Assembly (NCBI RefSeq): GCF_001663155.1
Contig: NZ_CP015963.1
Span: 1,071,001-1,135,000, forward strand
Reading direction: 5' to 3'
DNA length: 64,000 nt
From: Altererythrobacter ishigakiensis
GTDB lineage: Bacteria > Pseudomonadota > Alphaproteobacteria > Sphingomonadales > Sphingomonadaceae
Below are positions 4,483 to 41,869 of the stretch, in pieces. The notes under the pieces are model-generated. The model was not told the origin of the DNA, searched no databases, and was given only the letters and a program-made list of their open reading frames with translations. Position 1 is the first letter of the stretch, and each line of letters opens with the position of its first letter. Position numbers and translations under genes: made by a program.

Positions 4483-4935
4483 GAAGGAGCGCTGGCTTCG
4501 TCGTTACCATTTTTTGTGATCAGCGCGCGGTCGAACAGATATTGTCCGCTTTCCACCCTCATTATGAGACGTTGGCGATCTATCAGAATGTCCGCTATCA
4601 GGATTGCGCAGAAGCTATCTTAATGTCTTAAATGAGGGCGCAAATCGGAAGCACCTTCTCGGCAGGACTGGTTGCTCACGCTCTGATTGTGGAGTGGGCA
4701 AATGCTTCCCTAGATCAGTCAGTGCATTCGACTGGCACCACTCGTGCACATTGGAACTTGACAGGCACACCGTACGCAGTAGCACTGCTGTGTTTTGGGA
4801 AAAAGTGCAATAAAATCAGTGCGCGAAACGCTCAAGGTGCTCGGTAGAGAGGGCGCTATTGAATGCCGCCCGGTCCCCGCAAATGACAGTATTTCCAAGG
4901 GTTCCGGGGGCAGTTTGGACAGGGGCGAATGCCAT
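4483..4935. other. Non-coding stretch before the tandem recombinases
   Basis: About 450 bases without a convincing gene separate the RND pump from the first recombinase. Short open frames here have no start signal and no recognisable protein. The stretch contains two copies of TGTCCGCT (4543-4550, 4589-4596) and the 15-bp direct repeat at 4765-4779 that I propose as an attachment site. It lacks a tRNA gene. Base composition is more AT-rich than the genes on either side, as expected at an insertion boundary. Confidence 0.6.
4765..4779. repeat. Left copy of 15-bp direct repeat, candidate attL
   Basis: The sequence GCACACCGTACGCAG occurs here and again at 41855-41869. Both copies are preceded by CTTGAC two or three bases upstream. 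In the 11 bases following the repeat all six mismatches are transitions, which suggests common origin. This copy runs into an inverted repeat, GCAGT-AGC-ACTGC (4776-4788). It lies about 160 bases before the likely start of the first tyrosine recombinase, the normal position of an attachment site. The att role is inferred. Confidence 0.5.
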
Positions 4936-6108
4936 ATGGTCCCCAAACGTCGAATGTCTGCGCGCAGAGCGCTTCTTGATGGCAATTTTGCCCGTCGCAA
5001 ATTGCCGCTGCGCGAGCGCGAATATTGCATCTGGGACACCGAACTTGCAGGCTTCGGTCTGCGCGTGAGGCCGAGCGGGAATTACTTCTGGTTCGTTCGC
5101 TTGCGCCATCGCGGTAAGCATCGCCGCATCACCCTTGGCCGAACCGACGAGCTTGAGGCGGAGCTGGCGAGGGCGCAGGCCCGTCGCATCCTTGCCGAAG
5201 CCGCGCTCGATGGATTGCCCAAGCGCGCAGTGGTGAAGGCCACTCCGACGATGACGGATTTCGTTGAGGCCAATTGGGATGATCTTTCGCGCGTCTGGAA
5301 GCCATCGACCACAAAGCGGAACTGGAATGCGTGGCGGCTCACCATCAAGCCCACATTTGGTGACACGCGCGTAGCGGACATCCTCCCACCAGACATCCAC
5401 CGCTGGCGCGATGGATGCGCGGGAGAGAGCGAGGTGAAGTTCAACCGCGCCGTGCCCGTTCTGTCAGCGCTGTTCAAATATGCCGAAGCGCTCAAGATGC
5501 GTCGGCCAGGTTCGAACCCCTGCCGAGGCATGCCGCGCTACAAGCGGCAAAGCGTCGAACGTTATTTGACGCCAGCCGAGTATCGCAGGATCGGAGCGGC
5601 ATTGCGTGAGGCTGAGGAAGACCGACCGGCAGAGGTCGCAATCGCTCGCCTGCTCTTGTTCACCGGCGCGCGCGTGGGCGAAATCGAGAATCTGCGCTGG
5701 GAGTGGGTGATGCCGCCCCGACTGCTGCTGCCAGACAGCAAGACCGGCCCCAAGGTGATTTGGCTCAACACGCAGGCGCAGGATGTCCTTGCCGGGATCG
5801 AGCGGCGCGAGGATTGCGAGCTGGTATTCCCGAACCGTACTGGCAAACGCCCGCTCAACTTCGATACGTGGTGGTACAGCTTTCGGCGGCGATGCGCTTT
5901 GCCTGACGTTCGCATCCACGACCTGCGCCATAGCTTCGCTTCGACCGCGATCATGGACAACGTGCCGCTATCGACCATCGGCAAGCTGCTGGGCCACAAA
6001 CTGGTCGAGACAACCGCCAAATATGCGCATCTGTCCGATGACGTGATCGGCGAAGCCGCCGAGCGGGTATCAGGCTCGCTGGCGCAGGCGATTGGCCTAA
6101 GGCCATGA
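4936..6108 (+). CDS. Tyrosine recombinase/integrase, first of a tandem pair
   Basis: The protein has the layout of phage- and island-type integrases. An Arm-DNA-binding domain comes first (GFGLRVRPSGNYFWFVRLRH), then a SAM-like core-binding domain (about residues 100-190), then the catalytic domain with Arg in LFTGARVGEIENLRW, the box IHDLRHSFAS and LLGHKLVETTAKYAHL carrying His and the nucleophilic Tyr. It would cut and rejoin DNA at an attachment site. I chose ATG 4936 (MVPKRRMSARRALLDG); the frame is open upstream to 4795, but that part shows no family features. The last four bases overlap the next recombinase start (ATGA), so the two are translated together. The candidate att repeat lies just upstream. 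Confidence 0.9.
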   Translation: MVPKRRMSARRALLDGNFARRKLPLREREYCIWDTELAGFGLRVRPSGNYFWFVRLRHRGKHRRITLGRTDELEAELARAQARRILAEAALDGLPKRAVVKATPTMTDFVEANWDDLSRVWKPSTTKRNWNAWRLTIKPTFGDTRVADILPPDIHRWRDGCAGESEVKFNRAVPVLSALFKYAEALKMRRPGSNPCRGMPRYKRQSVERYLTPAEYRRIGAALREAEEDRPAEVAIARLLLFTGARVGEIENLRWEWVMPPRLLLPDSKTGPKVIWLNTQAQDVLAGIERREDCELVFPNRTGKRPLNFDTWWYSFRRRCALPDVRIHDLRHSFASTAIMDNVPLSTIGKLLGHKLVETTAKYAHLSDDVIGEAAERVSGSLAQAIGLRP

Positions 6109-7307
6109 CCGCCGCCAGTCTCAAGAAGATCGTCGAGGAGGCGCTTGCCGAGGTTGGGGCAACCGTCAACTTCAAGCTCGTTCCCAAAGGCAAGGCGCGC
6201 ACCACGACCTGGCTCGGTGTCGAGCACGGCTTTGGCATCCGCCACTATCCGAGCGGTCGCAATGTCTACATCGTCCAGACCCGCATGGCAGGTCGTATGC
6301 GCACCGTGACAATCGGGCCTGCGTCGGTCCTCACGCGCTACCAGGCGCAAATGGTTGCGCGCCGCGTAATCGCTTACGCGCAGGTCGGTCGCGATCCGGC
6401 GACCGAACGTCAACGAATCCGGTCCGCTCCGAGCTTCGCCGAATTCGTGACCGAGTATTGGGATCGCTGGGCACCACGCTGGAAAGCATCGACCCTGGAA
6501 ACGCACACCGGCTACCGCCGCCGCTATCTCGATGACGCCTTTGCTGGGGTCTACATCGACGAACTCAACGAGGGCCATGTGACGAGCTGGTTTGCGGACC
6601 TCAACAATCGGACCGGGCCGGGAGCGTCAAACCGAACCTTTGAAATCCTCAAGCACATGCTGAACAAGGCCGAGGAATGGGGCTACCGGCTCGAAAACAC
6701 CAACCCGTGCCGCTCCGTCCGGCCCAACCGCAAGCGCCAGTGCGAGCGCTTCCTTACCAATGATGAGCTGGCCCGTCTGGGTGCGGAGTTGGCGAAGCTG
6801 CGATCATCGGACGACCGCACGAAGCAATGCGCGGGTGCGGCTATCACGCTGTTGCTGCTGACAGGTTGCCGGAAGAGCGAAATCCTCACGCTCGAATGGA
6901 GCGACATCAAGGGCAACCGACTGCACTTGCGCGACAGCAAGACCGGACCACGAACGGTATGGCTGGGCTCGGCAGCCCGCGAAGTAATTGGCACGCTACC
7001 GCGCTTCGAGAGGATTCCATACCCGTTCTGGAATTACAGCTACCGCAAGCCGCTGCGGTGCGTGAATGGATTCTGGCGCAGGCTCAGAGACGAAGCCGGA
7101 CTACCCGGCGTTCGCATCCACGACCTGCGTCACACCTATGCCAGCCACGCGGCGATGAACAAGGAAACCTTGCCGATGATCGGGCGTCTGCTCGGCCATG
7201 CCAATGTGCAGACGACTGCTCGATATGCTCACCTCGATGACGAGCATTTGCTTGATGCAGCACAGAAAATAGGAGATGCGATCAAAGACATGCTTGCGCG
7301 CGCCTAG
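6105..7307 (+). CDS. Tyrosine recombinase/integrase, second of a tandem pair
   Basis: This 400-residue integrase starts inside the stop of the previous one (ATGA overlap). It has an N-terminal arm-binding region (GFGIRHYPSGRNVYIVQTRM), a core-binding domain (SFAEFVTEYWDRWAPRWKAS) and a catalytic domain with Arg in LLTGCRKSEILTLEW, IHDLRHTYAS and LLGHANVQTTARYAHL. It is clearly related to its partner but not a recent copy: motifs are shared (SKTGP, NPCR) while the rest differs widely. A coupled pair of complete recombinases suggests they act together at one site, possibly as a mixed complex; this is inference. They face the anaerobic gene block. Confidence 0.9.
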   Translation: MTAASLKKIVEEALAEVGATVNFKLVPKGKARTTTWLGVEHGFGIRHYPSGRNVYIVQTRMAGRMRTVTIGPASVLTRYQAQMVARRVIAYAQVGRDPATERQRIRSAPSFAEFVTEYWDRWAPRWKASTLETHTGYRRRYLDDAFAGVYIDELNEGHVTSWFADLNNRTGPGASNRTFEILKHMLNKAEEWGYRLENTNPCRSVRPNRKRQCERFLTNDELARLGAELAKLRSSDDRTKQCAGAAITLLLLTGCRKSEILTLEWSDIKGNRLHLRDSKTGPRTVWLGSAAREVIGTLPRFERIPYPFWNYSYRKPLRCVNGFWRRLRDEAGLPGVRIHDLRHTYASHAAMNKETLPMIGRLLGHANVQTTARYAHLDDEHLLDAAQKIGDAIKDMLARA

Positions 7308-7390
7308 ATAAAGTCAGATTGAAATCGCTATGAATACTATAGCCCCGTACAAGTAAGTCAAATCGTTGCCTCTCAAGTCACCCGGGCCGG

Positions 7391-8146
7391 CTAACGAAAT
7401 CGAAGCGTGATCTGGCTTTCCGCCGAGAGCCTCAGCTGGTTGATCGAGAGCTTGTTTTCCGGAAGGTCGCCAAGCGTTGACCGAACTTCGCCGGAGACCG
7501 CTTGCTGAATTGCATAGGTACCGCGATAGCCACGACCGGCAAGGTCGCTGGCCATGGTGAGCACGTCCTCCTCGTCAAGCAAGTCGCTGTGTACGGTCGT
7601 GCGCACCTCGAATGGGACCGTGTTCTGGCTGCACAACAGGTCCAGCGTCGATGAAAACCGGGAACAGCCTTTGACGCCGGTCACACGCTGAAACTTGGTA
7701 GGCGGCGCCTTATAATCGAGCGCGATCCAGTCGAGCAATCGCGCTTCGAGCAATCGGGCGACCACATCGGGACGCAGACCGTTGGTGTCGAGCTTGAGGG
7801 CAAATCCCATCGCTTTGACCTTCACCGCGAAATCGAACAGCCCGCGCCAACTCGTCGCCTCCCCGCCGGAAAGCACAACGCCATCGAGCAACCCCCGACG
7901 TCTGGTGAGGAACGCAAAAATTTCCTCCTCGCCTATGCTGCCTTGTCCCAGCACGATTTGAGGGTTGTGGCAGTATCCGCAACGCATGTTGCAGCCTGCA
8001 ACCCAGATGATACAGGCGACCCGGTCCGGAAAATCCAGCATCGTAAAGGGGGTCAGCCCGTGAAACGGGACGGCGGCACGCCTTTCGACGTGCCGTCTGC
8101 CCTCCGGCAATGTTGCAACCGATTCCATCTCAGTGCGGTGATGCAA
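7391..8146 (-). CDS. nrdG: Anaerobic ribonucleoside-triphosphate reductase activating protein, radical SAM
   Basis: This 251-residue protein carries the radical SAM motif CNMRCGYC near residue 53, followed by VVLSGGEAT, typical of glycyl-radical activases of the NrdG2 kind. It would use a [4Fe-4S] cluster and S-adenosylmethionine to place the glycyl radical on NrdD. Its start overlaps the end of nrdD by 17 bases, so the two genes form one operon read leftward. It belongs to the oxygen-free dNTP supply of the block. A second Met at residue 7 is an alternative start. Confidence 0.9.
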   Translation of the reverse strand: MHHRTEMESVATLPEGRRHVERRAAVPFHGLTPFTMLDFPDRVACIIWVAGCNMRCGYCHNPQIVLGQGSIGEEEIFAFLTRRRGLLDGVVLSGGEATSWRGLFDFAVKVKAMGFALKLDTNGLRPDVVARLLEARLLDWIALDYKAPPTKFQRVTGVKGCSRFSSTLDLLCSQNTVPFEVRTTVHSDLLDEEDVLTMASDLAGRGYRGTYAIQQAVSGEVRSTLGDLPENKLSINQLRLSAESQITLRFR

Positions 8147-10151
8147 AGAGGTCGCCGATCATCGCGGCAGCTTCGGTGAAATGGCGGCGCTCGCGGTGTT
8201 CGCCGCTTTTGCCCTTGTTGAAGCTGTCCACGGGACGGAAGTATCCCATCACCCGGGTCCAGACTTTAGTCCTTTCACCGCATTTGGGGCATTCCGGTTG
8301 CTCGCCCTGCAAGTAGCCATGTGTGTCGCAGACCGAGAAAACCGGCGTCAGCGTGACGTAAGGCAGTCGATAATTGGTCAGCACCTTCTTCAGGAAGTTC
8401 CGCGCGGCATCGGCACTCGACAGTTTCTCGCTCATGTAGAGATGGAGCACCGTGCCTCCAGTATACTTGCACTGCAGGTCATTCTGTAGCTCGAGCGCTT
8501 CAAAGGGATCGTCGGTGTGATCGACCGGGATCTGCGACGAATTGGTGTAGTAGATGTTCTCCCTGCCGCCTGCCTGCAGGATATCGGGAAACCGCTTCTG
8601 GTCTTCTTTGGCAAAACGATAGGTGGTGCCTTCGGCCGGGGTGGCTTCGAGGTTGTACAGATTGCCGGTCTGTTCCTGATATCCGACCAGCTTCGCACGC
8701 ATATGGTCGAGGATGTCCAGCGCCATCTGTATCCCATCCGGCTCGGTCAGGTCAGAGGCGTCCTTGGTGAAGTTGCGCACCATTTCGTTCATCCCGTTGA
8801 CCCCGATGGTCGAGAAATGGTTGCGCAAGAAGGGCAGATAGCGGGCGGTGAAGGGGTACAATCCCCGATCGTACATCTGCTGGACGAAAGCGCGCTTCTT
8901 CTCGAGCGTTGACTTCGCGATATCCATCAACCGGTCGAGTTCATCCATCAGGGCTGGCAGATCGCCTTTGAAGCGATAGCCGAGTGCGGCCATGTTGATG
9001 GTCACGACGCCGAGCGAACCGGTCATTTCAGCCGACCCGAAGAGGCCATTTCCGCGTTTCAGAAGCTCGCGCAGATCGAGCTGGAGGCGGCAGCACATCG
9101 ATCGCACCGCGCCCGGCGAATAGGCTTCGGGGTTGGGGCGTCGCTCCCCGGTTTCCGGATCACGGATATACTGGCTGCCGATGAAGTTCTGAAAATAGGA
9201 GGATCCGACCCTCGCCGCGTTCTCGAAGATCGCGGTGGCTACCTTGCTGTCCCAGTCGAAATCCTCGGTGATGTTCACGGTTGGGATCGGGAAGGTAAAG
9301 GGTTGGCCGGTCGCATCGCCTTCGGTCATCACCTCATAATAGGCGAGATTGATCAGCTCCATCTCCGGAGCGAAGTGGGAAAACGTCATGTCTTCCAGCG
9401 ATCGCAAACCCATGTCCCGGGCCTGTGCCCGTGCAAGCAGGGTGTCATCCTCGATCCCGGCGAAGAGGTGGCGATCCCGATAGGTCGGATAGAGCCTGCG
9501 CAAGTCTTCGGGCACCACGATGTCGAGCGTAATGTTCGTGAACGGAGATTGCCCCCAACGCGCCGGCACATTGAGGTTGTAAACGAACTGCCGGATCGCC
9601 TTTTTCACTTCGGCGAATGTCAGATTATCGTAGAAGACGTAGGGCGCCAGATAAGTGTCGAAACTCGAAAACGCCTGCGCGCCGGCCCATTCCGATTGCA
9701 GGATGCCGAGGAAGTTGCTCATCTGGCCAAGCGCTTCGCGGAAATGTCGTGGCGGGCGAGACGAGACGCGCCCGGCTACACCGTTGAACCCGTCGTTCAG
9801 CAGTGCGCGCAATGACCACCCGGCGCAATACCCGGTCAGGCAGTCGAGATCGTGGATATGGATGTCACCCTGCCGGTGCGCCAGGCCCTCCTCGGGCGCG
9901 TAGACTTCGTCGAGCCAGAAATTGGCGATCACCTTGCCCGCGACGTTGCTGATGAGGCCGGCGTGCGAATAGCCGACATTGGCGTTGGCCTTGATCCGCC
10001 AGTCGGCACCCGAGATATACTCACCGACGGTTTCGGAGCAGTTGATTTCGCGGCCACCCCGGAGTGCGTCACGAATGCCTACTTGGTCATACGAACGATC
10101 ATTCGCTGCATGCGCTTCGCAAGCACTTTCGTTCTTCAGTTTCAGCGTCAT
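8130..10151 (-). CDS. nrdD: Anaerobic ribonucleoside-triphosphate reductase, large subunit (class III)
   Basis: The 673-residue protein reduces ribonucleotides to deoxyribonucleotides without oxygen. It contains the NrdD core (GDIHIHDLDCLTGYCAGW, SPFTNITLD, NLEATPAEGTTYRFAKED) and a C-terminal zinc site (CDTHGYLQGEQPECPKCG). The glycyl-radical segment is RVMGYFRP, with the radical Gly near residue 636, in a variant where Met replaces the Cys of the enterobacterial RxCGYLG form. No N-terminal ATP-cone is visible, so the usual allosteric activity switch may be absent. Start 10151 is preceded by GGAGAGA at good spacing; an upstream ATG at 10208 lacks this. An FNR-type box lies about 100 bases upstream. 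Confidence 0.93.
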   Translation of the reverse strand: MTLKLKNESACEAHAANDRSYDQVGIRDALRGGREINCSETVGEYISGADWRIKANANVGYSHAGLISNVAGKVIANFWLDEVYAPEEGLAHRQGDIHIHDLDCLTGYCAGWSLRALLNDGFNGVAGRVSSRPPRHFREALGQMSNFLGILQSEWAGAQAFSSFDTYLAPYVFYDNLTFAEVKKAIRQFVYNLNVPARWGQSPFTNITLDIVVPEDLRRLYPTYRDRHLFAGIEDDTLLARAQARDMGLRSLEDMTFSHFAPEMELINLAYYEVMTEGDATGQPFTFPIPTVNITEDFDWDSKVATAIFENAARVGSSYFQNFIGSQYIRDPETGERRPNPEAYSPGAVRSMCCRLQLDLRELLKRGNGLFGSAEMTGSLGVVTINMAALGYRFKGDLPALMDELDRLMDIAKSTLEKKRAFVQQMYDRGLYPFTARYLPFLRNHFSTIGVNGMNEMVRNFTKDASDLTEPDGIQMALDILDHMRAKLVGYQEQTGNLYNLEATPAEGTTYRFAKEDQKRFPDILQAGGRENIYYTNSSQIPVDHTDDPFEALELQNDLQCKYTGGTVLHLYMSEKLSSADAARNFLKKVLTNYRLPYVTLTPVFSVCDTHGYLQGEQPECPKCGERTKVWTRVMGYFRPVDSFNKGKSGEHRERRHFTEAAAMIGDLFASPH

Positions 10152-10253
10152 GGTTCCATTCTCTCCCTGATCCGAACCAGCTCTTGGCGAGCGGCTTAGA
10201 CACAACATGTAGTGTTAGTTATGGAATCCTAGGCACAAGATAGGAAGATTGGA

Positions 10254-10267
10254 TTGATAAATGTCAA
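10254..10267. promoter_or_regulatory. FNR-type box upstream of nrdDG
   Basis: TTGATAAATGTCAA matches the FNR consensus TTGAT-N4-ATCAA at nine of ten positions. It lies about 100 bases upstream of the nrdD start codon, compatible with activation at a promoter between box and gene. Binding is inferred. Confidence 0.75.
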
Positions 10268-10380: not shown

Positions 10381-10394
10381 TTGATTTCGGTCAA
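10381..10394. promoter_or_regulatory. FNR-type box upstream of the phenylpyruvate-type decarboxylase
   Basis: TTGATTTCGGTCAA matches the FNR consensus at nine of ten positions. It lies 70-90 bases before the candidate start codons of the rightward decarboxylase gene and is well placed for activation. Confidence 0.75.
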
Positions 10395-10463: not shown

Positions 10464-12119
10464 GTGGACCTGCGGAGAAACGGATTGTCGGAGACAGTGG
10501 CGACGGCGTTGCTCAAGGCGCTCAAGGATCGCGGAGCGGACCGGGTTTTCGGAATTCCCGGTGATTTTGTCCTGCCTTTCTTTCGCGCCATCTCCGAGAC
10601 CGACATTCTGCCTCTGCACACGCTGAGCCATGAACCCTCGGTCGGTTATGCGGCGGATGCCGCCAGCCGGATCGGGAGCAGTTTGGGCGTTGCGGCTGTC
10701 ACCTACGGTGCCGGTGCCCTCAACATGGTGAACGCCGTGGCTCAGGCCTATGCTGAGAAATCGCCCCTGGTGGTCATTTCGGGAGCGCCGGGCGCGCAGG
10801 AGGGGGTCTTGGGGCTGGGCCTGCACCACCAGGTCAAGAGCCTCAACTCCCAATTCGAAGTTTTCCGCGAATTGACGTGTGCCCAATGCACTCTCGACGA
10901 TCCGGCAATCGCACATCAAGAGATCGCGAGAGTGCTCGACACCGCCATCAGCCTGTCGCGACCGGTCTATATCGAGTTCCCTCGCGATCTTGTCGACATG
11001 CCGTGCGCATCAGTGCCTCCAATGCATCTGCCGCCCCCTGACCTTGATAGTGCGCGAACCTGCGCCAGCGAGATCATCAGCAAGCTACGGGCGGCTTCGT
11101 CCCCTGCAATCCTCGTTGGCGTTGAAGCGCGCCGATACGACCTCGAAGACAGGATCGCCGAGCTATGCCGGACCCTGTGCATTCCGGTTGCGACAAGCTT
11201 CATGGGCAGAGGGCTGTTTGCAACCAAGGAATTGCCACTGCTCGGCACCTATCTTGGTTCTGCCGGAGATCCTGAGGTTGCCGAAACAGTTGAAGGCGCA
11301 GATTGTCTGCTGATGCTGGGGGTGATTGTTTGCGACACGAATTTTGGCGTGTCCGGCCGCGAGATCGATATGCGGGCATCGATCCGCGCGCTCGATCGCA
11401 CTGTGGTGTTCGCTCACCACATCTACCCAGACGTCACACTCGAAGCACTGATCGACGCGTTGACCGAAATCGCCGAGCCGATCGGGGCGGCCAGATCGGC
11501 GAGCGGTGCATCCTACGTGGTTGGCTTGCCCGACGACGCGACGCGGCTGGCACCGTCGCATATCGCCATCGGCATCAACGACCTGTTCGAAACTCATGGG
11601 CCAATGCCGATGGCCGCCGATGTCGGAGACTGCCTGTTCATCGGCCTGGAAGTCGCCGATACCGAATTGGTTGCGCCAGGATACTACGCTTCGATGGGAA
11701 CGGGCGTCCCCGCGGGGCTTGCCATCAACGCTGTGACAGGTCGTCGCCCGATCGTGCTCGTCGGCGATGGCGCATTCCAGATGACCGGCTGGGAACTCGG
11801 AAATTGCCAACGCTATGGCTGGTCACCGATCGTTATCGTTCTCAACAATCAGGGCTGGGGGATGCTCCGCAGTTTCGCGGCAGCCGACGCTTACACCGAC
11901 CTCGCCGATTTCCACTATGCCGATCTGGCGCAATCGCTGGGCGGGAAGGGAGACCGGGTTGAGACCTGCTCCGAACTCGCCGAGGCGCTGAAGAGAGCGG
12001 TCGAAGAAGAGGGCGGCTTCTACCTGATCGAAGCGATGCTGCCGCGTGGCAGCACGTCTGCTGCATTGCAACGCTTTACGCAGGCCATAAGGCGGATTTC
12101 GGCGCTGGCGAATGAATAG
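10464..12119 (+). CDS. ipdC: Thiamine-diphosphate phenylpyruvate/indolepyruvate-type decarboxylase
   Basis: The protein matches the plan of Azospirillum phenylpyruvate decarboxylase from end to end: FGIPGDFVLPFF, LHTLSHEPSVGYAADA with the catalytic Glu, VTYGAGALNMVNAVAQAYAEKSP, and the thiamine-diphosphate site GDGAFQMTGWELGN followed by NNQGWGMLR. It should decarboxylate aromatic or branched 2-oxo acids to aldehydes in the cytoplasm; the exact substrate cannot be read. The frame opens at GTG 10464, but TTG 10485 has a better ribosome site (GGAG seven bases upstream) and matches the family N-terminus, so the true start may be 10485. An FNR-type box lies upstream, which suggests use under oxygen limitation. 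Acetolactate synthase is less likely because the HEPSVGYAADA and LHHQVK features favour decarboxylases. Confidence 0.82.
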   Translation: MDLRRNGLSETVATALLKALKDRGADRVFGIPGDFVLPFFRAISETDILPLHTLSHEPSVGYAADAASRIGSSLGVAAVTYGAGALNMVNAVAQAYAEKSPLVVISGAPGAQEGVLGLGLHHQVKSLNSQFEVFRELTCAQCTLDDPAIAHQEIARVLDTAISLSRPVYIEFPRDLVDMPCASVPPMHLPPPDLDSARTCASEIISKLRAASSPAILVGVEARRYDLEDRIAELCRTLCIPVATSFMGRGLFATKELPLLGTYLGSAGDPEVAETVEGADCLLMLGVIVCDTNFGVSGREIDMRASIRALDRTVVFAHHIYPDVTLEALIDALTEIAEPIGAARSASGASYVVGLPDDATRLAPSHIAIGINDLFETHGPMPMAADVGDCLFIGLEVADTELVAPGYYASMGTGVPAGLAINAVTGRRPIVLVGDGAFQMTGWELGNCQRYGWSPIVIVLNNQGWGMLRSFAAADAYTDLADFHYADLAQSLGGKGDRVETCSELAEALKRAVEEEGGFYLIEAMLPRGSTSAALQRFTQAIRRISALANE

Positions 12120-13768: not shown

Positions 13769-13845
13769 AAGTTCGGTGCCTCCTTTTGGGCTCATTGTTT
13801 GCACACGCCTCTTGAATGGACGGCGACCGGCGTGAGGAACTCTGG

Positions 13846-15810: not shown

Positions 15811-15845
15811 GGTCTTGCCTTCTAGCTCTTATCGTCTGCACAACT

Positions 15846-15859
15846 TTGATCAGCATCAA
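15846..15859. promoter_or_regulatory. Perfect FNR-type box between the CopD-like gene and the porin gene
   Basis: TTGATCAGCATCAA matches the FNR consensus at all ten defined positions. It lies 36 bases before the CopD-like start and 33 bases before the porin start, so one site may serve both divergent promoters. Confidence 0.85.
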
Positions 15860-15892
15860 ATACATCTCGGCTTGCGAGTCTATTCGGGCGAT

Positions 15893-32996: not shown

Positions 32997-33578
32997 TTAT
33001 GACTGCCGGAGCCTGCTCTCAGCTCGTGCGAGCATTTCAAGGTCGTTGATATTGGTGAAGGGATCGATGCCTTGGTCCGGTGGCCAATCGATGCGTTTGA
33101 CTCCGACGCTTTCCGCGAAACGCCAGATCGAACGCCCTCCCGCCGCAACGAAGGCATCCAATGCGGCGTGCTCGATCCTCCACAAAGCAGCCATTGGATG
33201 ATCGCGCCCTTTACTCACTGGCATGCCGCAGGATTCCGAGCCAATTCCCCGCGCAAGTCGTTCCGCGAGATCGGATGGCAGGAACGGCAAATCGCATCCG
33301 ATCAGCAGGACTTGGTCACGATTATGCACTTCAGCGAAACCGAAGGCACTCTTCAAGGCGCTGATCGGGCCAAGGCCTACCGCTGCATCTACCAGTATCG
33401 GAATTGAGGTGAGATCAAGCTGATCGGAATCGCGAACAGCAACAGCGATCAGATCAGAATGTTTGCTTGCCCAATGCAAGGCATGTTCAAGAAGAGATTT
33501 CCCGGCGAGCTTTTGAGCCGGTTTGCTGCCGCCCATGCGGCGACCTTCGCCACCGGCGGCGATCACTATCGTGGGCAT
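32997..33578 (-). CDS. mobA: Molybdenum cofactor guanylyltransferase
   Basis: The nucleotidyltransferase loop AAGGEGRRMGGSKPAQKLAGKSLLEHAL at the N-terminus and LIGCDLPFLPSDLAERL further on mark MobA. It joins GMP to the Mo-molybdopterin to form the bis-MGD cofactor required by NarG. ATG 33578 starts directly at the fold (MPTIVIAAGG); an upstream start at 33614 would overlap the pdxH-like gene. It is read leftward, opposite to the other Mo-cofactor genes, behind the pdxH-like and acyl-CoA dehydrogenase genes. Confidence 0.9.
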   Translation of the reverse strand: MPTIVIAAGGEGRRMGGSKPAQKLAGKSLLEHALHWASKHSDLIAVAVRDSDQLDLTSIPILVDAAVGLGPISALKSAFGFAEVHNRDQVLLIGCDLPFLPSDLAERLARGIGSESCGMPVSKGRDHPMAALWRIEHAALDAFVAAGGRSIWRFAESVGVKRIDWPPDQGIDPFTNINDLEMLARAESRLRQS

Positions 33579-33586
33579 TGTGTCAG

Positions 33587-34180
33587 TCACGGGTAAAGCA
33601 GGTAGCGCTCCCATCGATCATTGTCTTGTTTTTCGAATAACACGCGGTCGTGCACCCGGTATTCCCCTTGGGTCCAGAATTCAAAGCGACGCGGCAGTAT
33701 TCGGAATCCTGACCAGAACGGCGGGCGGCCCGGATCCTTCAGGGCGAAGGAAGATGTGAATCGAGCGATACGAGCCAGAAGTTTTCCGCGGCTCTCAAGA
33801 GGAGCTGATTGCTTCGATGCCCATGCGCCGATCCTGCTGGCGAGCGGTCTTGAGGCGAAGTAGATGTCTGCTTCCTCATCGCTAACTGGCTGGACCGATC
33901 CCTCGATCCGGACCTGAAGGCCCAGTGGAGCCCAATAGAAACACAAGGCGGCATGGGGATTGGCTGTCAGTTCACTCGCCTTGCGACTGCCGAGATTGGT
34001 GTAAATCACGAAGCCCGACGCGTCGTGCCCTTTGAGCAGGACCATGCGGTTCGATGGCATGCCATCCTTGCTTGTCGTTGCGAGATTGACCGCACTCGCA
34101 TCTGCAATGTCGGGGTGCCGGGACGCTTCTGCATACCACGATCCGAAGAGTGCATGCGGATCGTCGGATAGTCCGTTCAT
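33587..34180 (-). CDS. pdxH: Pyridoxamine 5'-phosphate oxidase-like flavoprotein
   Basis: This 197-residue FMN-binding protein has the PdxH layout: [79 protein letters not shown] and YRVHDRVLF. Classical PdxH makes pyridoxal phosphate using oxygen. It overlaps the acyl-CoA dehydrogenase by four bases (ATGA) and is followed by mobA, so three unrelated genes form one leftward operon. The site residues differ slightly from E. coli PdxH (FRILPRRF for FRVSLEQI-type), so the true reaction may differ. Confidence 0.8.
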
Positions 34181-35439
34181 GAGCCTCTGCGATCTCGCCA
34201 GTCGGCCATGCGGTCCCTGAATTTCCCGAATTCCATTCGAGCAATCGATCGCAAGTGGACTTCATCGGGTCCATCGGCAATTCGCAGGGCTCGCATCCCG
34301 GCATAGACTTCGGCCAGACCAAAATCGTCCGAAAGACCGCCCGCTCCATGAGCCTGCATGGCATGATCTAGAACGCGCAATGCCGTTCTTGGTGCAGCAA
34401 CCTTGATCAGCGCGATCTCGAGCTTTGCGGCTTTGTTACCAGCCTTGTCCATCATGTCCGCGGCCTTGAGGCAGAGAAGTCGGGTCATCTCGATATCGAG
34501 CCGCGCTTCACCCAGGCGTTGTTCCCACACCGACTGCTCGGACAGGCGCTTGCCGAATGCGACCCGCGATTGAAGCCTCTCGGCCATCTTCTCGATAGCG
34601 CGTTCGGCGGCACCGATTGCGCGCATGCAATGATGAATTCGGCCAGGACCGAGCCTGCCTTGCGCGATTTCAAACCCGCGACCCTCTCCGAGTATGATAT
34701 TGCTGGCAGGAACCCGGACATCGCGCAGCACCACTTCGCCATGGCCGTGTGGAGCTCCGTCATAACCGAACACTGGCAGCATGCGTACGATCTCGACGCC
34801 GGGAGTGTCGAGCGGCACGAGGATCTGCGATTGTTGCTGGTGCGCATTCGCGTCCGGGTCGGTTTTGCCCATGACGATCGCCACCTTGCAGCGCGGATCG
34901 CCAACGCCGGAAGACCACCATTTGCGCCCGTTGATAACGTATTCGTCTCCCTCACGGCGGATCGAGGTCTGGATGTTGGTCGCATCGGAAGAGGCAACAT
35001 CGGGTTCTGTCATCAGGAACGCCGAACGGATTTCTCCATCAAGAAGCGGCCTCAGCCATTGCGCCTTCTGCTCCGGCGATCCGTAGCGGTGCAGAACCTC
35101 CATATTCCCGGTATCGGGTGCCGAGCAGTTGAACGCTTCTGATGCGAAGCCCACACGCCCCATTTCTTCTGCACACAACGCGTAGTCCAGATTGGAGAGT
35201 CCGGCTCCGCGATACGCCTCCTCATCGTGCTCGGAAGGCGGCAGGAAGAGGTTCCATAGCCCCTCGGAATAGGCGCGCGCTTTCAGTTCTTCGATGATTG
35301 GCGGAACCTGCCAGCGCTCGTCTCCACATTCGCCCAGCTGGGATCGGTATACCTCTTCTGCTCGATAGACATGCGCGTCCATGAAACTTCGCACGCGATC
35401 TCGCCAAAGGGACTGATTCTCGGAAAGGCTGAAATCCAT
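34177..35439 (-). CDS. Acyl-CoA dehydrogenase
   Basis: The 420-residue flavoprotein has the family order: helical N-terminus, [20 protein letters not shown] (FAD/substrate loop), [16 protein letters not shown], and [16 protein letters not shown] at the C-terminus. It belongs to the ACAD10/11-like branch with long N-terminal helix ([20 protein letters not shown]). It oxidises an acyl-CoA to the enoyl-CoA; the chain type is unknown. It is first in a leftward operon with pdxH and mobA, and an FNR-type box lies 66 bases upstream, shared with the divergent bicupin gene. Confidence 0.87.
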
Positions 35440-35504: not shown

Positions 35505-35518
35505 TTGATCTTGGTCAA
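35505..35518. promoter_or_regulatory. FNR-type box between acyl-CoA dehydrogenase and bicupin genes
   Basis: TTGATCTTGGTCAA matches nine of ten consensus positions and equals the narK box base for base. It sits 66 bases from the leftward start and about 36 bases from the rightward start, so it may control either or both. Confidence 0.8.
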
Positions 35519-35553
35519 GGATCGATGGTCGAGTTTGTTTTCTAGTGATCGCT

Positions 35554-36402
35554 ATGGATCGTCGTGAGCATATCGAGTTTGTGCAGTCGCAATTGCTACC
35601 CTGGCAACGCATCGGTGCGGGGCTTGCGCGGCCGGATGCCGAATACAAGATGCTCAGCCGTGACCCTGAGAGTGGGGCTTGCAGTGCTTTGATGCGCTAT
35701 CCTCCCGGCTGGTCGCGCATGGGGCCGGAGCATATTCTGGCAGACGAGGAATTCTTCGTTCTCGACGGATCACTGGAAATGGACGGAGAGCTGCATGAAG
35801 CGGACAGCTATGCCTTCCTGCCTGCCGGGTGGACCCGCAACAGCATGGCCAGCAAGAACGGCTGCGTCTTGATTGCATTCTACAATTGCGAGCCCGTTCT
35901 CGTCGGAGATATGGGTGACTGCGACACGGCGCGTGCGATCCTGCATCTCAAGACGCGGCAGATGGCTTGGGACATGACGCTCAATGACCCCAATCTGCGC
36001 CATCTGGGAATTTCGCGAAAGGATCTGCGGACCGACCTGGAGACCGGCGAACGTACGTTCCTTTCATTGATTCTCCCGCAGTCCGAACCGCCCGCTGGCA
36101 AGGGGCCGCAGGAAAGCCACCCGGTTGTCGAGGAATGTTACATGATTGCTGGCTCGCTAACAGGGCCGCCCGGCACGATGCATCCAGGCGCCTATTTCTG
36201 GAGACCGCCAACTATTCCCCACGGCCCGTACGGTTCGCGCTGGGGTGCGGTATCGCTGATCCGTTTTGTCGGTGGTCGGCATGAAAATATCTGGAGTGAC
36301 GACCAAGCCGATTTCTCGTTCGATCAGGCCTACGATCCGATCCTTCCTGAGCGGTTGGAGTACCTGCGCAATTCCTCGTGGCAAGGCCCGCTTCCCTTCT
36401 AG
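35554..36402 (+). CDS. Two-domain cupin protein (DUF4437-like)
   Basis: The roughly 282-residue protein contains two cupin-like halves. The first is around HILADEEFFVLDGSLEMDGELHEADSYAFLPAG, the second around PVVEECYMIAGSLTGPPGTMHPGAYFWRPPTIPHGPYG. The His and Glu residues in these loops could bind a metal. No reaction is known to me for this family. It is divergent from the acyl-CoA dehydrogenase and shares its FNR-type box, so the two may act in one pathway. ATG 35554 is preferred; GTG 35545 is also open. Confidence 0.7.
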   Translation: MDRREHIEFVQSQLLPWQRIGAGLARPDAEYKMLSRDPESGACSALMRYPPGWSRMGPEHILADEEFFVLDGSLEMDGELHEADSYAFLPAGWTRNSMASKNGCVLIAFYNCEPVLVGDMGDCDTARAILHLKTRQMAWDMTLNDPNLRHLGISRKDLRTDLETGERTFLSLILPQSEPPAGKGPQESHPVVEECYMIAGSLTGPPGTMHPGAYFWRPPTIPHGPYGSRWGAVSLIRFVGGRHENIWSDDQADFSFDQAYDPILPERLEYLRNSSWQGPLPF

Positions 36403-36624
36403 TAGTGCCCAAGTCTCCAGGCCCGCCTATGAACGCCAAGATCAGCAAGAAGCGATTGGTGAATAACGATGAGCGCCTTGCACTACTCTGGCGTCGCGTT
36501 GAACAGGGACCAGTAATCCTTCGTGGAGCTCTTCGTTAACCTTTTGTGAAGTCTGGTGTTACGGTCAATGGATGGGCGCGAGCCGAGGATTGGCAGCCTG
36601 TATTGCTGGCGCTATCCTGATGAC

Positions 36625-37350
36625 ATGGAATCACTCGAAATCGACACATCAATGAATTCTTGCCAAGCTTGCGCTGTTCGCAATCGAGCGATCTGTGCTG
36701 ACCTCGACGACGAGGAAATTGGATTGCTCAACGCAATCGGGCGGAGAAAGCATCTGCGCGCAGGCGAACAGCTGCTGTGGGAAGGCGACGAGGCGATTAT
36801 TGTTGCCAATGTGGTGGAAGGCGTCCTCAAGCTTTCGACACAAACAGCAGACGGCAAAGAGCAGATTCTTGGGATGGTCTATCCATCGGACTTTCTTGGT
36901 CGTCCGTTTGGTGAGACCACGCCCTACGGTGTCGAGGCGCTGAGCGACGCCCAGGTCTGTGTATTCAGGCGCACCGATTTCGACAGATTTGCCCGCGAGC
37001 ATCCCCGTCTTGAGCACAAGTTGCTTGAGCGCACGCTCGCGGAGCTGGATCGAACGCGGCGATGGATGGTCCTGCTGGGAAGGATGAATGCCGAACAGAA
37101 ACTGGCTACGTACCTCGTTGAGACGGCCGAGCGCCTCCTCCCGGCGACTTGCGAAGAAGCGGAGCCTGGTGACAAGCGAACAATCACCCTGCCTCTCTCT
37201 CGCCAGCAAATGGCAGACGTTCTCGGTCTCACCATTGAAACGGTTAGTCGTCATATCAGCAAGCTGAAGAACGAAGGACTGATCGATCTTCCAGGCCGCC
37301 GAGAACTAACAATCAACTCGCTCAAGGCACTTGCAGAGCGAGGTGGCTAG
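36625..37350 (+). CDS. fnrL: FNR/FnrL-type oxygen-sensing transcription regulator
   Basis: The 241-residue Crp/Fnr regulator carries Cys13, Cys16 and Cys24 (CQACAVRNRAIC) plus a fourth Cys in SDAQVCVFRRTDF. This is the ligand set of FnrL-type [4Fe-4S] oxygen sensors. The sensor fold (LLWEGDEAIIVANVVEGVLKL), dimer helix and helix-turn-helix (LSRQQMADVLGLTIETVSRHISKLKNEGL) follow. The E-x-x-S-R of the recognition helix (ETVSR) reads TTGAT half-sites, so this is the likely master of the boxes in the block. ATG 36625 fits the family; the frame is open upstream to 36556. No FNR box precedes it, so it may be made constitutively. A second regulator follows. Confidence 0.9.
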   Translation: MESLEIDTSMNSCQACAVRNRAICADLDDEEIGLLNAIGRRKHLRAGEQLLWEGDEAIIVANVVEGVLKLSTQTADGKEQILGMVYPSDFLGRPFGETTPYGVEALSDAQVCVFRRTDFDRFAREHPRLEHKLLERTLAELDRTRRWMVLLGRMNAEQKLATYLVETAERLLPATCEEAEPGDKRTITLPLSRQQMADVLGLTIETVSRHISKLKNEGLIDLPGRRELTINSLKALAERGG

Positions 37351-37465
37351 CCGATTATGCTGCAGATGCTTTGAGCCTGATTGTCTCGAAGCGGTAGGGC
37401 TCGCCGGACACTTTGGTCCTTCCGGGACACCGTCTGAATCGCCTCCAGAAGCAAATTGGTTGGTT

Positions 37466-37479
37466 TGACCAAAATCAAG
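37466..37479. promoter_or_regulatory. FNR-type box upstream of the FixK-like regulator
   Basis: TTGACCAAAATCAA matches nine of ten consensus positions. It lies 33 bases before ATG 37513 and inside the open frame that would start at 37456, which argues for the later start. Confidence 0.75.
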
Positions 37480-37512
37480 GACGACGCTCATTTCATCGTG
37501 CATTTTTCGGTG

Positions 37513-38238
37513 ATGCACTCGAAGCAATCAGCTGAAGCTTTGCCGACTTCCATCATTTTTGGGGGAACAGGAGCACCCGTGGCCTCGCTTGGCGCTGCTG
37601 AAGCGACGCATCTTCGTCTGCAGGCGCTCGCCAGATATGCTGGTGCCCGCTCGGGGGATTCTCGCGTTGTCGACAACAGGGTCAACCAGGTGGTGCTTGT
37701 CGTCGAGGGGGCGGTTAAGCTGATTGCCAGCGTTTCGGGTGGACGTACCCATGTCATGGGTTTCTACTTCAAAGACGACTTCATCTATCTTCCAGCACGA
37801 GAAACGCACGCCTACAACCTCTGCGCCTTGAAAGACTGCGAACTCATCGCCTTTCCGGCGACGGAGTTTATTCGTTTGGCTCAGAACGACAGGGCGCTGA
37901 ACAATAACTTCATTAGCCATCTGCTACGTACCCTCGGTCGAAGTCGCGAAAAGACCATTGCTCTAGGGCAGAAGACAGCGCGGGAACGGGTCGCGACTTT
38001 CCTGGTCAGCATGGCTGAACGGATCGGTTCTCCATTCTCCAATGGAGCTCTCCTCGATCTCCCGATGTCTCGCCGTGATATTGGCGAGAACATTGGGCTT
38101 ACGATCGAAACTGTGAGCCGACAGATGACGGAGCTTCGAAATGCGGGCCTCGTGTCCACTTCGGGCAGGTCGCAAGTCAAGATCCTCGATCTGGCCGCAC
38201 TGAAGCAAGAAGCCGGCCACTTCCCCGTCCTAACCTGA
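37513..38238 (+). CDS. Crp/Fnr family regulator without cysteine cluster (FixK-like)
   Basis: This 241-residue regulator has the sensor fold (VVLVVEGAVKLIASVSGGRTHVMGFYFKDDFIYLP) and a C-terminal helix-turn-helix (MSRRDIGENIGLTIETVSRQMTELRNAGLVST). It lacks the cysteine cluster, so it resembles FixK, whose activity depends on its amount. The recognition motif ETVSR is the same as in the FnrL-type protein, so both may share targets. An FNR-type box lies just upstream, suggesting a cascade from FnrL to this gene. ATG 37513 is chosen because the upstream frame would span the box. hemN follows. Confidence 0.82.
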   Translation: MHSKQSAEALPTSIIFGGTGAPVASLGAAEATHLRLQALARYAGARSGDSRVVDNRVNQVVLVVEGAVKLIASVSGGRTHVMGFYFKDDFIYLPARETHAYNLCALKDCELIAFPATEFIRLAQNDRALNNNFISHLLRTLGRSREKTIALGQKTARERVATFLVSMAERIGSPFSNGALLDLPMSRRDIGENIGLTIETVSRQMTELRNAGLVSTSGRSQVKILDLAALKQEAGHFPVLT

Positions 38239-38326: not shown

Positions 38327-38340
38327 TTGATGCGGGTCAA
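38327..38340. promoter_or_regulatory. FNR-type box upstream of hemN
   Basis: TTGATGCGGGTCAA matches nine of ten consensus positions. It lies 34 bases before the preferred hemN start at 38375 and covers the alternative TTG and ATG starts at 38327 and 38330, which I therefore reject. Confidence 0.75.
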
Positions 38341-38374
38341 AGACGCCTTCGCAAAGTGCGAGCATCCCGAAACA

Positions 38375-39688
38375 ATGTGGCCTTACTATCCAGAGCTGCT
38401 TGAGCAGTCTGTTCCGCGATATACTAGCTTCCCGAATGCGGCGGAGTTCAAGGCGATCGACGAAGGCGACTATCGCACCGCTGTCGAGTACGCAGAGGGC
38501 GACGTCTCCCTCTATGTCCATATCCCGTTTTGTGAGAAGATCTGCCATTACTGTGGTTGCAATACCGGTGCCGCCGGACGCCGACACCGATTGGAATCCT
38601 ATCTCGACGCTTTGCATCGCGAGATCGAAACGGTTTCGCGTCTGCTCCCCTCAAAATCACAGGTTCGCCGAATTGCGTTTGGCGGCGGGAGCCCCAATGC
38701 GCTGGCACCAACGGATTTCGTTCGGCTCGTCGATGATTTGATCATCCGCTTTGGGATATCCGATCCGGCATTCTCTATCGAACTTGACCCACGCACGATC
38801 TCTCGCGAATGGGCCCAGGTCATAAGGGCGCTCGGGATTGATCGTGCCAGCCTCGGCGTCCAGACTTTCGCGCCGCACTGTCAGGAAGCGATAGGGCGCA
38901 TTCAATCCGATGCCCTGATTGCAGAAGCTACCGAGCTGTTACGCAATGCCGGTGTGAAGTCGCTCAACTTCGACCTGATGTACGGCTTGCCCCAGCAATC
39001 CAGTGATGATCTGTTCGCTACTCTGCAGCGCACTGTTGCGCTCGGAGCTGACCGGATTGCACTGTTTGGCTATGCGCATATGCCGCACGTGGTACCGCGG
39101 CAACGCGCAGTGGATTGTCGCTCGATGCCGGACAAGGCCGCCAGGTTTGCTATGGCGGAGCTTGGCTTCACTTATCTTCGCTCTCACGGGTACTGCGCAA
39201 TTGGTTTCGACCATTTCGCGCGCTCCGCGACCGATCCGCTGGCGATCGCCGCGCAAGCAGGGGCTCTGCGCCGTAATTTCCAAGGGTTCACCGATGACGA
39301 TGCGTCGAGCTTGATAGGCCTCGGCGCATCGGCGATCAGTTCATTCGAGACGCTGCTCGCCCAAAATGAAAAGAATAGCGGTCGATACTGCATGCTGGCA
39401 TCGGACGGTCGGATTGCCACTGTTCGGGGCGTGTCGCGATCGCCGGACGACCGAATTCGAGGTCGAGTGATCGAGCAGCTCCTGTGTTCGGGGAAAGCAC
39501 AAGTGCCTCCTGAGCTTGAAGCCGAAACAAGCCCGTTACTCCGTCCGTTTCTGGATCGCGGCCTGGCATCCTGCGAAAAGGGCACCATCTCGATAACTCC
39601 GGATGGACTGCCATACTCGCGAGCAATTGCCGCTCGGTTCGACCCCTATCGCGACCACCTGCCTGGTCGCTTCAGTTCGGCGGTTTAG
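38375..39688 (+). CDS. hemN: Oxygen-independent coproporphyrinogen III oxidase
   Basis: The 437-residue radical SAM enzyme carries out haem synthesis without oxygen. The cluster motif is CEKICHYCGC near residue 50, with VHIPFCEK before it, GGGSPN, and GFDHFA, all hallmarks of HemN rather than of HemW. It starts at ATG 38375 (MWPYYPELLEQSVPRYTSFP), matching the E. coli N-terminus PRYTSYP. The haem serves NarI cytochrome b and possibly the Dnr-like regulator. Last gene of the anaerobic block. Confidence 0.95.
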   Translation: MWPYYPELLEQSVPRYTSFPNAAEFKAIDEGDYRTAVEYAEGDVSLYVHIPFCEKICHYCGCNTGAAGRRHRLESYLDALHREIETVSRLLPSKSQVRRIAFGGGSPNALAPTDFVRLVDDLIIRFGISDPAFSIELDPRTISREWAQVIRALGIDRASLGVQTFAPHCQEAIGRIQSDALIAEATELLRNAGVKSLNFDLMYGLPQQSSDDLFATLQRTVALGADRIALFGYAHMPHVVPRQRAVDCRSMPDKAARFAMAELGFTYLRSHGYCAIGFDHFARSATDPLAIAAQAGALRRNFQGFTDDDASSLIGLGASAISSFETLLAQNEKNSGRYCMLASDGRIATVRGVSRSPDDRIRGRVIEQLLCSGKAQVPPELEAETSPLLRPFLDRGLASCEKGTISITPDGLPYSRAIAARFDPYRDHLPGRFSSAV

Positions 39689-40019: not shown

Positions 40020-40418
40020 ATGACCAATATCGCAATCCTCACCGGCCGCATCGCCCGCGATCCGGAATCCCGCGAGACCAAGGGCGGCACCAATGTCACC
40101 GGGATCACCGTCGTCACCGATCGCCCCGCACGCGACAAGGATGGCAAGACCTACAAAGACGAGAACGGCTACACTGCCAAGGAAAGCGAGTTCCACCGGG
40201 TGACCTGCTTCAACGGCCTCGCCAAGACCGTCGGGCAGTACTGCACCAAGGGCCAGCTGGTCAGCGTCCAGGGCCGCATCCACTACACCCAGTGGGAAGA
40301 CAAGGACGGGGTCACCCGCTACGGCACCGAGATCCTCGCCGACAAGGTCGACTTCCTCTCCCGCGGCAACGGTTCGAGCGAGAACGACGACAACAAGGAT
40401 GCCCCCGAGATCGACTGA
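40020..40418 (+). CDS. ssb: Single-stranded DNA-binding protein, mobile-element type
   Basis: The 132-residue OB-fold protein has ILTGRIARDPESRETKGGTNVTGITVVTDRP, ESEFHRVTCFNGLAKTVGQYCTKGQLVSVQGRIHYTQWEDKDG. The C-terminus is acidic (SENDDNKDAPEID) but lacks the DDDIPF tip of the chromosomal copy at 52496. Such short SSBs are common on plasmids and conjugative islands of sphingomonads. It coats single-stranded DNA during transfer or replication. A terminator follows. Confidence 0.88.
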   Translation: MTNIAILTGRIARDPESRETKGGTNVTGITVVTDRPARDKDGKTYKDENGYTAKESEFHRVTCFNGLAKTVGQYCTKGQLVSVQGRIHYTQWEDKDGVTRYGTEILADKVDFLSRGNGSSENDDNKDAPEID

Positions 40419-41219: not shown

Positions 41220-41441
41220 ATGGCTTCAATTGCTCAAGAAAATTCGAACTCGGAATGCTACTTTGACGCGCTGGCTGTCGCAGAGCGTCGGGCGCTGCAC
41301 AGCTTCTTCGATCAGCACATCGTCGAGGACCGCGAACTGGGATATTTTGCCGTGGACGAGGGTGATTACAATGCTCTTCCGGCGCACTTGGCAGCGCGCG
41401 TCGTGCACACCGTGCATGGAACGATGTCAGACGAATTCTGA
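41220..41441 (+). CDS. Small acidic protein of unknown function (73 residues)
   Basis: I do not recognise this protein. It is acidic, has no signal or membrane segment and no cysteine pair, and reads mostly helical. It is very likely a real gene: a full AGGAGG lies six bases before the ATG, and a strong terminator follows 12 bases after the stop, so it forms a complete one-gene unit. It sits among mobile-element genes between ssb/HEPN-like and the second recombinase region. Confidence 0.7.
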   Translation: MASIAQENSNSECYFDALAVAERRALHSFFDQHIVEDRELGYFAVDEGDYNALPAHLAARVVHTVHGTMSDEF

Positions 41442-41452
41442 CCGTAGGATCA

Positions 41453-41485
41453 GGACAGGGGCCGGGAACGGCTCCTGTCCTTTTT
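41453..41485 (+). terminator. Strong rho-independent terminator after the 73-residue gene
   Basis: GGACAGGGGCCG pairs with CGGCTCCTGTCC (one G-T pair) around the loop GGAA and is followed by TTTTT. This is a textbook terminator. Confidence 0.9.
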
Positions 41486-41854
41486 CATGCGCTCGGAGGG
41501 GCGAGGATTGAGGATCGCGCAGTGCGACAGTTGGACGCGCAATCGGTCGCCACTGGATCCGATCAAGACCCGACCAACTGACATGACGGATCTTTGTGCC
41601 GGGCAGTACATTTTGCTCGTCTGCCTTCATATCAGAGTGGACCAGAACATTGGCCGCTTATGTTGGCTATTTGGTCCCCATTCCGGAACATTTGAGCAAA
41701 TTTCCAGGCCGGATATCTCGGTTCTGAGCAAAAATTCCGCAGCTAGCCTCGACGCTGCGCTATGCTTCCGCTTTGAAACGAAAGCATTTTCTTCGATAGT
41801 TTGCCCGTGGAAGCAACTGGTCACTGACGCGCACTTGAGAATGGGCTTGACCCA

Positions 41855-41869
41855 GCACACCGTACGCAG
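41855..41869. repeat. Right copy of 15-bp direct repeat, candidate attR
   Basis: GCACACCGTACGCAG is identical to 4765-4779 and has CTTGAC at nearly the same upstream distance. The following bases form an imperfect inverted repeat GCAGC-GGT-GCCGC, where a T-A pair of the left copy has become C-G, consistent with a kept structure. The att role is inferred. Confidence 0.5.

Follow-up and report, generated by a model that had tools for sequence, protein, structure and literature searches.

The 64-kb window analysed here (64,000 nucleotides from the Altererythrobacter ishigakiensis genome G000, a single contig of 2.67 Mb) contains a 37,105-base block, at positions 4765-41869, in which genes for nitrate respiration lie together with genes for other oxygen-independent functions. 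A preliminary description had presented this block as a self-contained, probably mobile island for anaerobic growth, bounded by two copies of a direct repeat. The repeat was found as a perfect 15-mer, GCACACCGTACGCAG, on the forward strand at both ends (left attachment repeat at 4765-4779, right attachment repeat at 41855-41869). A 15-mer shared within 64 kb is estimated to be near chance level, and it is not listed by a scan of the window with a minimum repeat length of 20 nt. Being uninformative by length alone, it takes its weight from the comparison of genomes. In 114 genomes of the same genus, 51 copies were found in 27 genomes, and a reversed control pattern gave none.

The left edge is occupied by two overlapping tyrosine recombinase genes on the forward strand, as had been claimed, and both frames are intact. 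Recombinase 1 (4795-6108) matches the Pfam families Arm-DNA-bind_3 and Phage_integrase, and recombinase 2 (6105-7307) was assigned from Pfam and its translation. R/HxxR/H/Y-type residues could be read by eye in the translation of recombinase 1. From the end of recombinase 2 to the frame of nrdG there are only 83 bp.

The cargo genes follow; they are on the forward strand and rest on Pfam matches unless stated otherwise. The anaerobic ribonucleotide reductase is represented by nrdG, its activase (7391-8146, reverse strand; TIGR02495 NrdG2), and nrdD, the class III enzyme itself (8130-10208, reverse strand; profile match). An indolepyruvate/phenylpyruvate decarboxylase gene, ipdC (10464-12119; TIGR03394), is followed by four genes on the reverse strand, encoding an AidB-like acyl-CoA dehydrogenase (12149-13888), an Fe/Mn superoxide dismutase (13846-14565), a carbonic anhydrase of the Pro_CA family (14678-15289) and a CopD-like membrane protein (15340-15810, below the Pfam cut-off). 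The dismutase had been called an exported one; the enzyme is present, and its export is suggested by a twin-arginine-like leader in the sequence. The gene announced as a porin is likewise present (15707-17107, its true start probably lying later), with weak profile matches to porin-like and alginate-export-like proteins.

An FtrB-type Crp/Fnr regulator (17104-17799, reverse strand; NF006901, above cut-off) precedes narK (17891-20764), which encodes a long MFS nitrate/nitrite transporter of 957 amino acids that is probably a NarK1-NarK2 fusion. The narGHJI set is complete within the island: narG (20761-24498, a start inferred within an open reading frame, ORF, listed from 20245), narH (24495-26024), narJ (25940-26728) and narI (26732-27433). 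A PpiC-type peptidyl-prolyl isomerase gene comes next (27426-28238). All six molybdenum cofactor genes that had been counted were recovered, namely moaA (28235-29263), moaD (29267-29527; 86 amino acids ending in GG, assigned by length, C-terminus and place, with no profile scan), moaE (29440-30024, true start probably around 29524), moaB (30000-30536; profile match), moeA (30533-31717, a start inferred within an ORF listed from 30182) and a mobA-like NTP transferase gene (32997-33614, reverse strand). Between moeA and mobA lies the NnrS gene (31742-32953). Further to the right are members of the pyridoxamine 5'-phosphate oxidase family (33587-34180, reverse strand) and of the acyl-CoA dehydrogenase family (34177-35439, reverse strand), a ChrR-like cupin or DUF4437 protein (35545-36402; profile match), an FnrL-like regulator with a CxxC...C cysteine motif (36556-37350; its best match is the FnrL model, below the cut-off of that model), a second, FixK-like regulator of the Fnr type without N-terminal cysteines (37456-38238; profile and translation) and hemN (38327-39688; TIGR00538, above cut-off). 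A single-strand DNA-binding protein gene, ssb (40020-40418), was named from its sequence and a 73-residue protein close to the right end (41220-41441) is an open frame, both with no profile scan. The nrdDG, hemN, narK-narGHJI, AidB, NnrS and regulatory genes of the preliminary description are thus all present as open frames.

The shared FNR boxes it had reported were also recovered. Eight matches to TTGATNNNNATCAA with at most one mismatch were detected in the window, where 1.98 were expected, and none of 100 shuffles reached eight. All of them fall inside the island, none elsewhere in the window, and each has a counterpart in G079, the second host described below. They were located by pattern search in the nrdD/ipdC interval (10254-10267 and 10381-10394), at 15846-15859 (TTGATCAGCATCAA), at the ftrB/narK junction (17847-17860 and 17940-17953), at 35505-35518 (TTGATCTTGGTCAA), ahead of the probable ATG of the second Fnr regulator (37465-37478) and upstream of the likely true start of hemN (38327-38340). 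Together with the three Crp/Fnr regulators (FtrB-type, FnrL-like and FixK-like), this gene content suggests a kit, with its own control, for respiring nitrate anaerobically. That the host grows without oxygen may be expected from the gene content and from the example of Sphingopyxis granuli TFA, and the conversion of a strict aerobe by the island is plausible.

A second copy and two empty sites

A search with NarG among 150 relatives returned seven other genomes of the genus at 86-92% identity, plus G056 at 70%. One genome of the same genus, G079, carries nearly the whole island. There, 36,594 of the 37,105 bases were covered at a mean DNA identity of 91.1%, and 35.7 kb aligned as one piece starting at window position 4764. 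Both ends of the G079 block are formed by the same 15-mer; the two sequences part at the left 15-mer, being unrelated outside it, and again directly after the right one. The block lies far from eipA, the core gene that adjoins the island in the window. From recombinase 1 to hemN the named proteins are each 84-100% identical between the two genomes, whereas for seven core proteins whose genes lie on the right-hand side of the window's island the identity to G079 is just 58-79% (an eighth row, a 31% ssb paralogue, was dropped). When ten proteins were concatenated, G000 and G079 were 95.5% identical, and six other clusters, G181 not included, showed 78-82% to either. The GC content, a comparison proposed in the preliminary description, is 59.4% and 59.6% for the island in G000 and G079, against 57.2% and 64.3% in sampled core stretches of the two hosts. 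In a tree of the adjoining aminotransferase (four of nine branches well supported), G000 groups with G002 and G157, apart from G079. As far as sequence comparison can show it, the block was recently transferred between distant species, and its mobility is about as well demonstrated as such data allow.

Reading the contexts of 30 of the 51 copies of the 15-mer revealed two empty sites. The one for the window's locus, with a single 15-mer as had been predicted, is in G170, where the left flank (4646-4779) is conserved at 82% and the right flank (41855-44171) at 86%. The gene order at this site (RHH-like gene, alpA, integrase, tRNA-Ser, eipA, aminotransferase, ribE, ribD, ygjP) is collinear with the window. 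In G170, neither the narG N-terminal domain nor nrdD was matched. The other empty site is in G159, where the left flank of the G079 block, one 15-mer and the right flank of the G079 block follow each other; this genome carries a different nar cluster elsewhere, without nrdD. No recombinase-pair match was found in the 20 kb around the single-repeat site in either genome.

The genes do not occupy the same place in all relatives, nrdD being present in 13 of the 114 genomes and absent from the two that are nearest in eipA out of 100 genomes of the genus, G002 and G157. Nine of the 13 were seen with nar, including G150; the other four (G152, G153, G160 and G166) are not covered by the nar listings. 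Conversely, G056 (NarG at 70%) and G159 bear nar without nrdD.

With a second location in G079 and two empty sites, the mobile unit that had been postulated stands. The block is very probably a site-specific integrative genomic island loaded with an anaerobic nitrate-respiration kit. Precise direct-repeat ends, an empty site with a single repeat in a relative and an onboard site-specific recombinase are the marks of such an island, and all three were observed.

A family of two-recombinase islands

Fifteen adjacent pairs of the 15-mer in the same orientation and less than 40 kb apart were counted, and 12 of them, including those of the window and of G079 (but not those of G038, G082 and G172), were fetched. 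In all 12, both recombinase genes stand directly after the left copy and their aligned parts are free of stops. The recombinase 1 proteins, the window's own aside, are either 91-96% or 46-49% identical to that of the window. On contig C2 of G045 (L118-L119), three 15-mers in the same orientation enclose two head-to-tail elements of 16.1 and 12.2 kb, one 15-mer being shared between them; the recombinase pairs of the two elements differ, their identities to that of the window being about 48% and 94%. Restriction-modification or metal-resistance genes are carried by other family members, and in G033, G065 and G045 the recombinase pair is followed by ORFs that do not encode recombinases.

When named genomes were scanned with recombinase 1, 35 loci were returned, in Erythrobacter, Qipengyuania, Croceicoccus, Altererythrobacter, Novosphingobium, Sphingomonas, Sphingobium and others. 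A core-like sequence with at most three mismatches occurs some 30-40 bp upstream of recombinase 1 in 32 of them (not in L147, L152 and L155), and its letters were seen by eye to co-vary with the recombinase. Across the order, relatives of recombinase 1 (E up to 1e-100) were present in at least 33 of 396 genomes, a lower bound as at most four candidates per genome were scored, and NarH (E up to 1e-150) in 80 of 396. Among the matches listed, in which G079 does not appear, G000 alone has both at one place; in G382 and G424 they are on different contigs.

A Sphingomonadales metagenome contig, L135, encodes a recombinase 1 of 75% identity, and narJ, narI and isomerase genes lie about 3 kb past its recombinase 2; its core-like repeat differs by two bases. 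This suggests another nitrate cargo. An RND efflux module to the left of the island (window 1-4553, L162 18303-20000) shows 70-80% DNA identity to modules in or near recombinase-pair islands of G046, G087 and G079, and appears to be another travelling cargo.

The outer tRNA-Ser island and competing explanations

To the right of the island lie a small RHH-like protein (42111-42440, forward strand; no Pfam match, likeness by eye) and three features that the preliminary description did not mention: an AlpA-type regulator (42430-42678, forward strand; Pfam), a third integrase (42707-43882, reverse strand; Pfam) and a tRNA-Ser (gct) gene (44033-44123, reverse strand; tRNA prediction). By k-mer comparison, a 17-nt piece of the tRNA-Ser end (window 44031-44047, forward strand; genome position 1115031) recurs at G000:C1:1064281, left of the window. 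On the basis of this repeat, the inner island probably lies within a 50.8-kb outer island (1064281-1115047), likewise not noticed in the preliminary description, that has the tRNA-Ser gene as its target. In G002 and G157, homology begins at the tRNA-Ser 3' end. No match to the left flank of G002 was found in the 60 kb retrieved to the left of the window, so that the empty site of the outer island is seen on the right side only. The T-loop of the tRNA was considered as the outer left end and rejected, because its pattern occurs at seven places in the genome, one being the window's tRNA-Ser and the others not near the window. Inside the outer island and left of the window, L162 14418-17176 encodes CopB and a multicopper oxidase and resembles DNA of an element in G004 (pieces at 77% and 86%). 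Just outside it, L162 7740-12713 encodes a protein of 1657 amino acids with caspase (Peptidase_C14), OmpA and WD40-type regions.

A different arrangement was found in G181, which belongs to another genus by the grouping used. Window positions 14491-36402, from carbonic anhydrase to cupin, are present there as one 21.9-kb piece of 90% DNA identity, adjoining the same tRNA-Ser and eipA together with a 66% integrase. The genome has no nrdD and no core sequence within one mismatch. Just before its RHH gene are a 57-residue ssb remnant (46%) and the core-like GCACACCGTACCCGG, two mismatches from the core, for which a simple count, made after seeing the match, gives a chance expectation of about 0.0006 in the 700-bp gap. 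With the remnant and this sequence kept, G181 may hold a worn copy of the same island; it may also be an independent carrier of the block. The protein identities of narI (69%) and narJ (75%) are low, suggesting a patchwork. At this level of identity, G000 and G079 are the only ones, of the loci compared, whose respiration block is flanked by the nrdDG and hemN-regulator modules. A TrwC-type relaxase is encoded in the block-carrying tRNA-Ser island of G181 (L185 9576-12515) and is a possible route for transfer from cell to cell.

Excision and integration at the 15-mer, driven by the recombinases, is the natural reading of the inner island. The two tyrosine recombinases at its left end would probably excise it as a circle, which would integrate by recombination at the 15-bp core. 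The attachment site attB would lie just upstream of the RHH/alpA module of resident islands, with ssb on the other side in several genomes; here, integration would have landed in the integrase island at tRNA-Ser. The cargo delivered in this way would cover nitrate uptake and reduction, molybdenum cofactor synthesis, the oxygen-independent steps of dNTP and haem formation, proteins against nitrosative and oxidative stress, and Fnr-type regulators acting through the shared boxes. Its passage between cells is presumed, no transfer genes having been recognised on board.

It could be argued that the integrase at 42707-43882 moves the 50.8-kb tRNA-Ser island as a whole and that the inner pair of recombinases is a passenger or a dead remnant. 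The 17-nt repeats bracketing the larger region, the start of the G002/G157 homology at the tRNA-Ser 3' end and the respiration block of G181, which adjoins the same tRNA-Ser and is accompanied by a relaxase but not by the recombinase pair, are in line with this. We nevertheless regard it as unlikely. The G079 block has its own exact 15-nt ends, lies far from eipA and has no alpA match, and the only integrase signal there is a 24% cross-match falling on its own recombinase 1. In addition, G170 lacks the inner block and yet retains the genes for the outer integrase, AlpA and the RHH protein at 74-94%, and both inner recombinase frames are intact. Movement by homologous recombination between flanking backbone copies (ssb and RHH modules), with no part for the recombinases, is highly improbable. 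The element does end in ssb-bearing DNA, ssb copies also stand beside the sites in several genomes, and the right flank is shared backbone of 71-90% DNA identity. General recombination would not be expected, however, to break the homology at the left end precisely where the 15-mer lies and to leave unrelated sequence beyond it, and the tandem elements of G045 have one 15-mer in common.

An ancestral block that most species of the genus have lost, with a coincidental sharing of the repeats, is given almost no credence and is already contradicted. Related nar/moa/nrd clusters without the exact 15-mer do occur in several genomes of the genus and family, so that the lineage, portrayed as otherwise aerobic, is not free of such genes outside this vehicle. 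Against a common ancestry stand the identity of the island, far above that of the core, its different locations, its host-independent GC content, the recurrence of the 15-mer with recombinases around unrelated cargo and the two empty sites, each with one repeat copy and no detectable island remnant. A plasmid origin of the nar/moa region was also considered and rejected: matches came from 88 plasmid records, of which not one spans 80% of the query, and the best places are 60-90% identical.

Several observations weigh against a self-contained island moved by its own recombinases. No relaxase, type IV secretion or conjugation gene was recognised among the island ORFs scanned with Pfam (moaD, ssb and the 73-residue protein were unscanned), and the pairing of relaxase with type IV secretion genes that defines an integrative and conjugative element is thus absent from these ORFs. 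The molybdenum cofactor gene moaC lies outside the island and is encoded elsewhere in all five genomes tested, the window's included. For both reasons 'self-contained' was too strong a term. Haem synthesis had been listed among the bottlenecks relieved; hemN is indeed there, but hemF is present in 5/5 genomes tested, so that hemN merely adds an oxygen-free route and replaces no missing step. Outside the genus, nrdD was found in just one of 16 genomes with nar that had been selected by NarH identity, and nar therefore need not be accompanied by the class III reductase. In G079, homology resumes further right at about 80%, in the shared RHH module; the right end consequently rests on the repeat, the observed break and the empty sites. 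Both narK and narJ align as two pieces in G079, possibly owing to frameshifts or sequencing errors. With two of ten inner branches well supported for NarG and two of nine for eipA, neither tree places G079. Finally, the recombinase pair, nrdDG, hemN, both Fnr genes, AidB and ipdC were unmatched in the 55 kb fetched from G181; a block without the recombinase pair and with a relaxase indicates that elements of the outer kind may be a second means of transport for the cargo.

Comparison with known systems

Arguments about how aerobic lineages acquire anaerobic growth often rely solely on gene trees. In the present case the ends are exact, two empty sites occur in nature and there is a second host, so that such a lifestyle switch becomes testable on one defined block, which may carry the change between otherwise aerobic bacteria. 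In purpose the island resembles the NCE of Thermus thermophilus, described as a mobile conjugative element for nitrate respiration with its own regulators, in an unrelated lineage (PMC5748679, PMC6282519). The present block indicates that nitrate respiration can travel together with otherwise limiting steps of DNA synthesis, haem and cofactor formation and regulation. The Thermus element is not known to bundle a class III ribonucleotide reductase, hemN or molybdenum cofactor genes. Another nitrate respirer for comparison is Sphingopyxis granuli TFA, a sphingomonad reported to grow without oxygen on nitrate (PMC4741004), in which an ftrB-like gene is divergent from narUGHJI and two Fnr-type regulators are described; it differs in that the induced oxygen-independent reductase is nrdZ and that fnrN, judged by its locus tag, is separate from the nar cluster, and the passages on this cluster mention no element ends or empty site (PMC4741004, PMC6472365, PMC7713065).

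With regard to the vehicle, we would tentatively propose, at somewhat less than even confidence, an undescribed class of Sphingomonadales islands in which two tyrosine recombinases and a short core co-varying with the enzyme make up a cassette system. Cargo modules, be it for restriction-modification, metal resistance, catabolism or an entire anaerobic lifestyle, would be added successively in head-to-tail order at a single att next to the RHH/alpA module of islands already resident, and in the present case a single recombination event would bring nearly every oxygen-free function that a strict aerobe needs for nitrate respiration, under its own oxygen sensor. Judged on the open-licence literature, there is a weak indication that this vehicle is absent from print. 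The RIT elements (recombinases in trio) are likewise described as having adjacent, overlapping tyrosine recombinase genes, three as compared with the two found here, and from the account of them neither RIT nor BIM fits two recombinases with direct-repeat ends and a large cargo (PMC3414803).

The nearest parallel is offered by the GInts, genomic islands with three integrases that are defined by ginABC and ginD (Bardaji et al. 2017, PMC5385486). Their recombinase genes are also at the 5' end, with variable cargo behind and a poorly conserved 3' end, and some are inserted at an ssb gene, just as ssb stands beside several of the sites considered here. Their attL and attR are described as imperfect direct repeats of 10-11 nt, compared with 15 perfect nt in our case, and circular intermediates have been demonstrated for them where only a prediction can be made for the present island (PMC5385486). 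A further difference from the published definition (PMC5385486) is the presence of only two recombinases (in the window and in the ORF lists of G033, G065 and the second G045 element); in the window, no ginD follows them in the 83 bp before the nrdG frame. From its sequence, the island would appear to work like a GInt, yet it falls outside the three-recombinase definition. The island points to a family of two-recombinase vehicles carrying unrelated cargoes across several genera.

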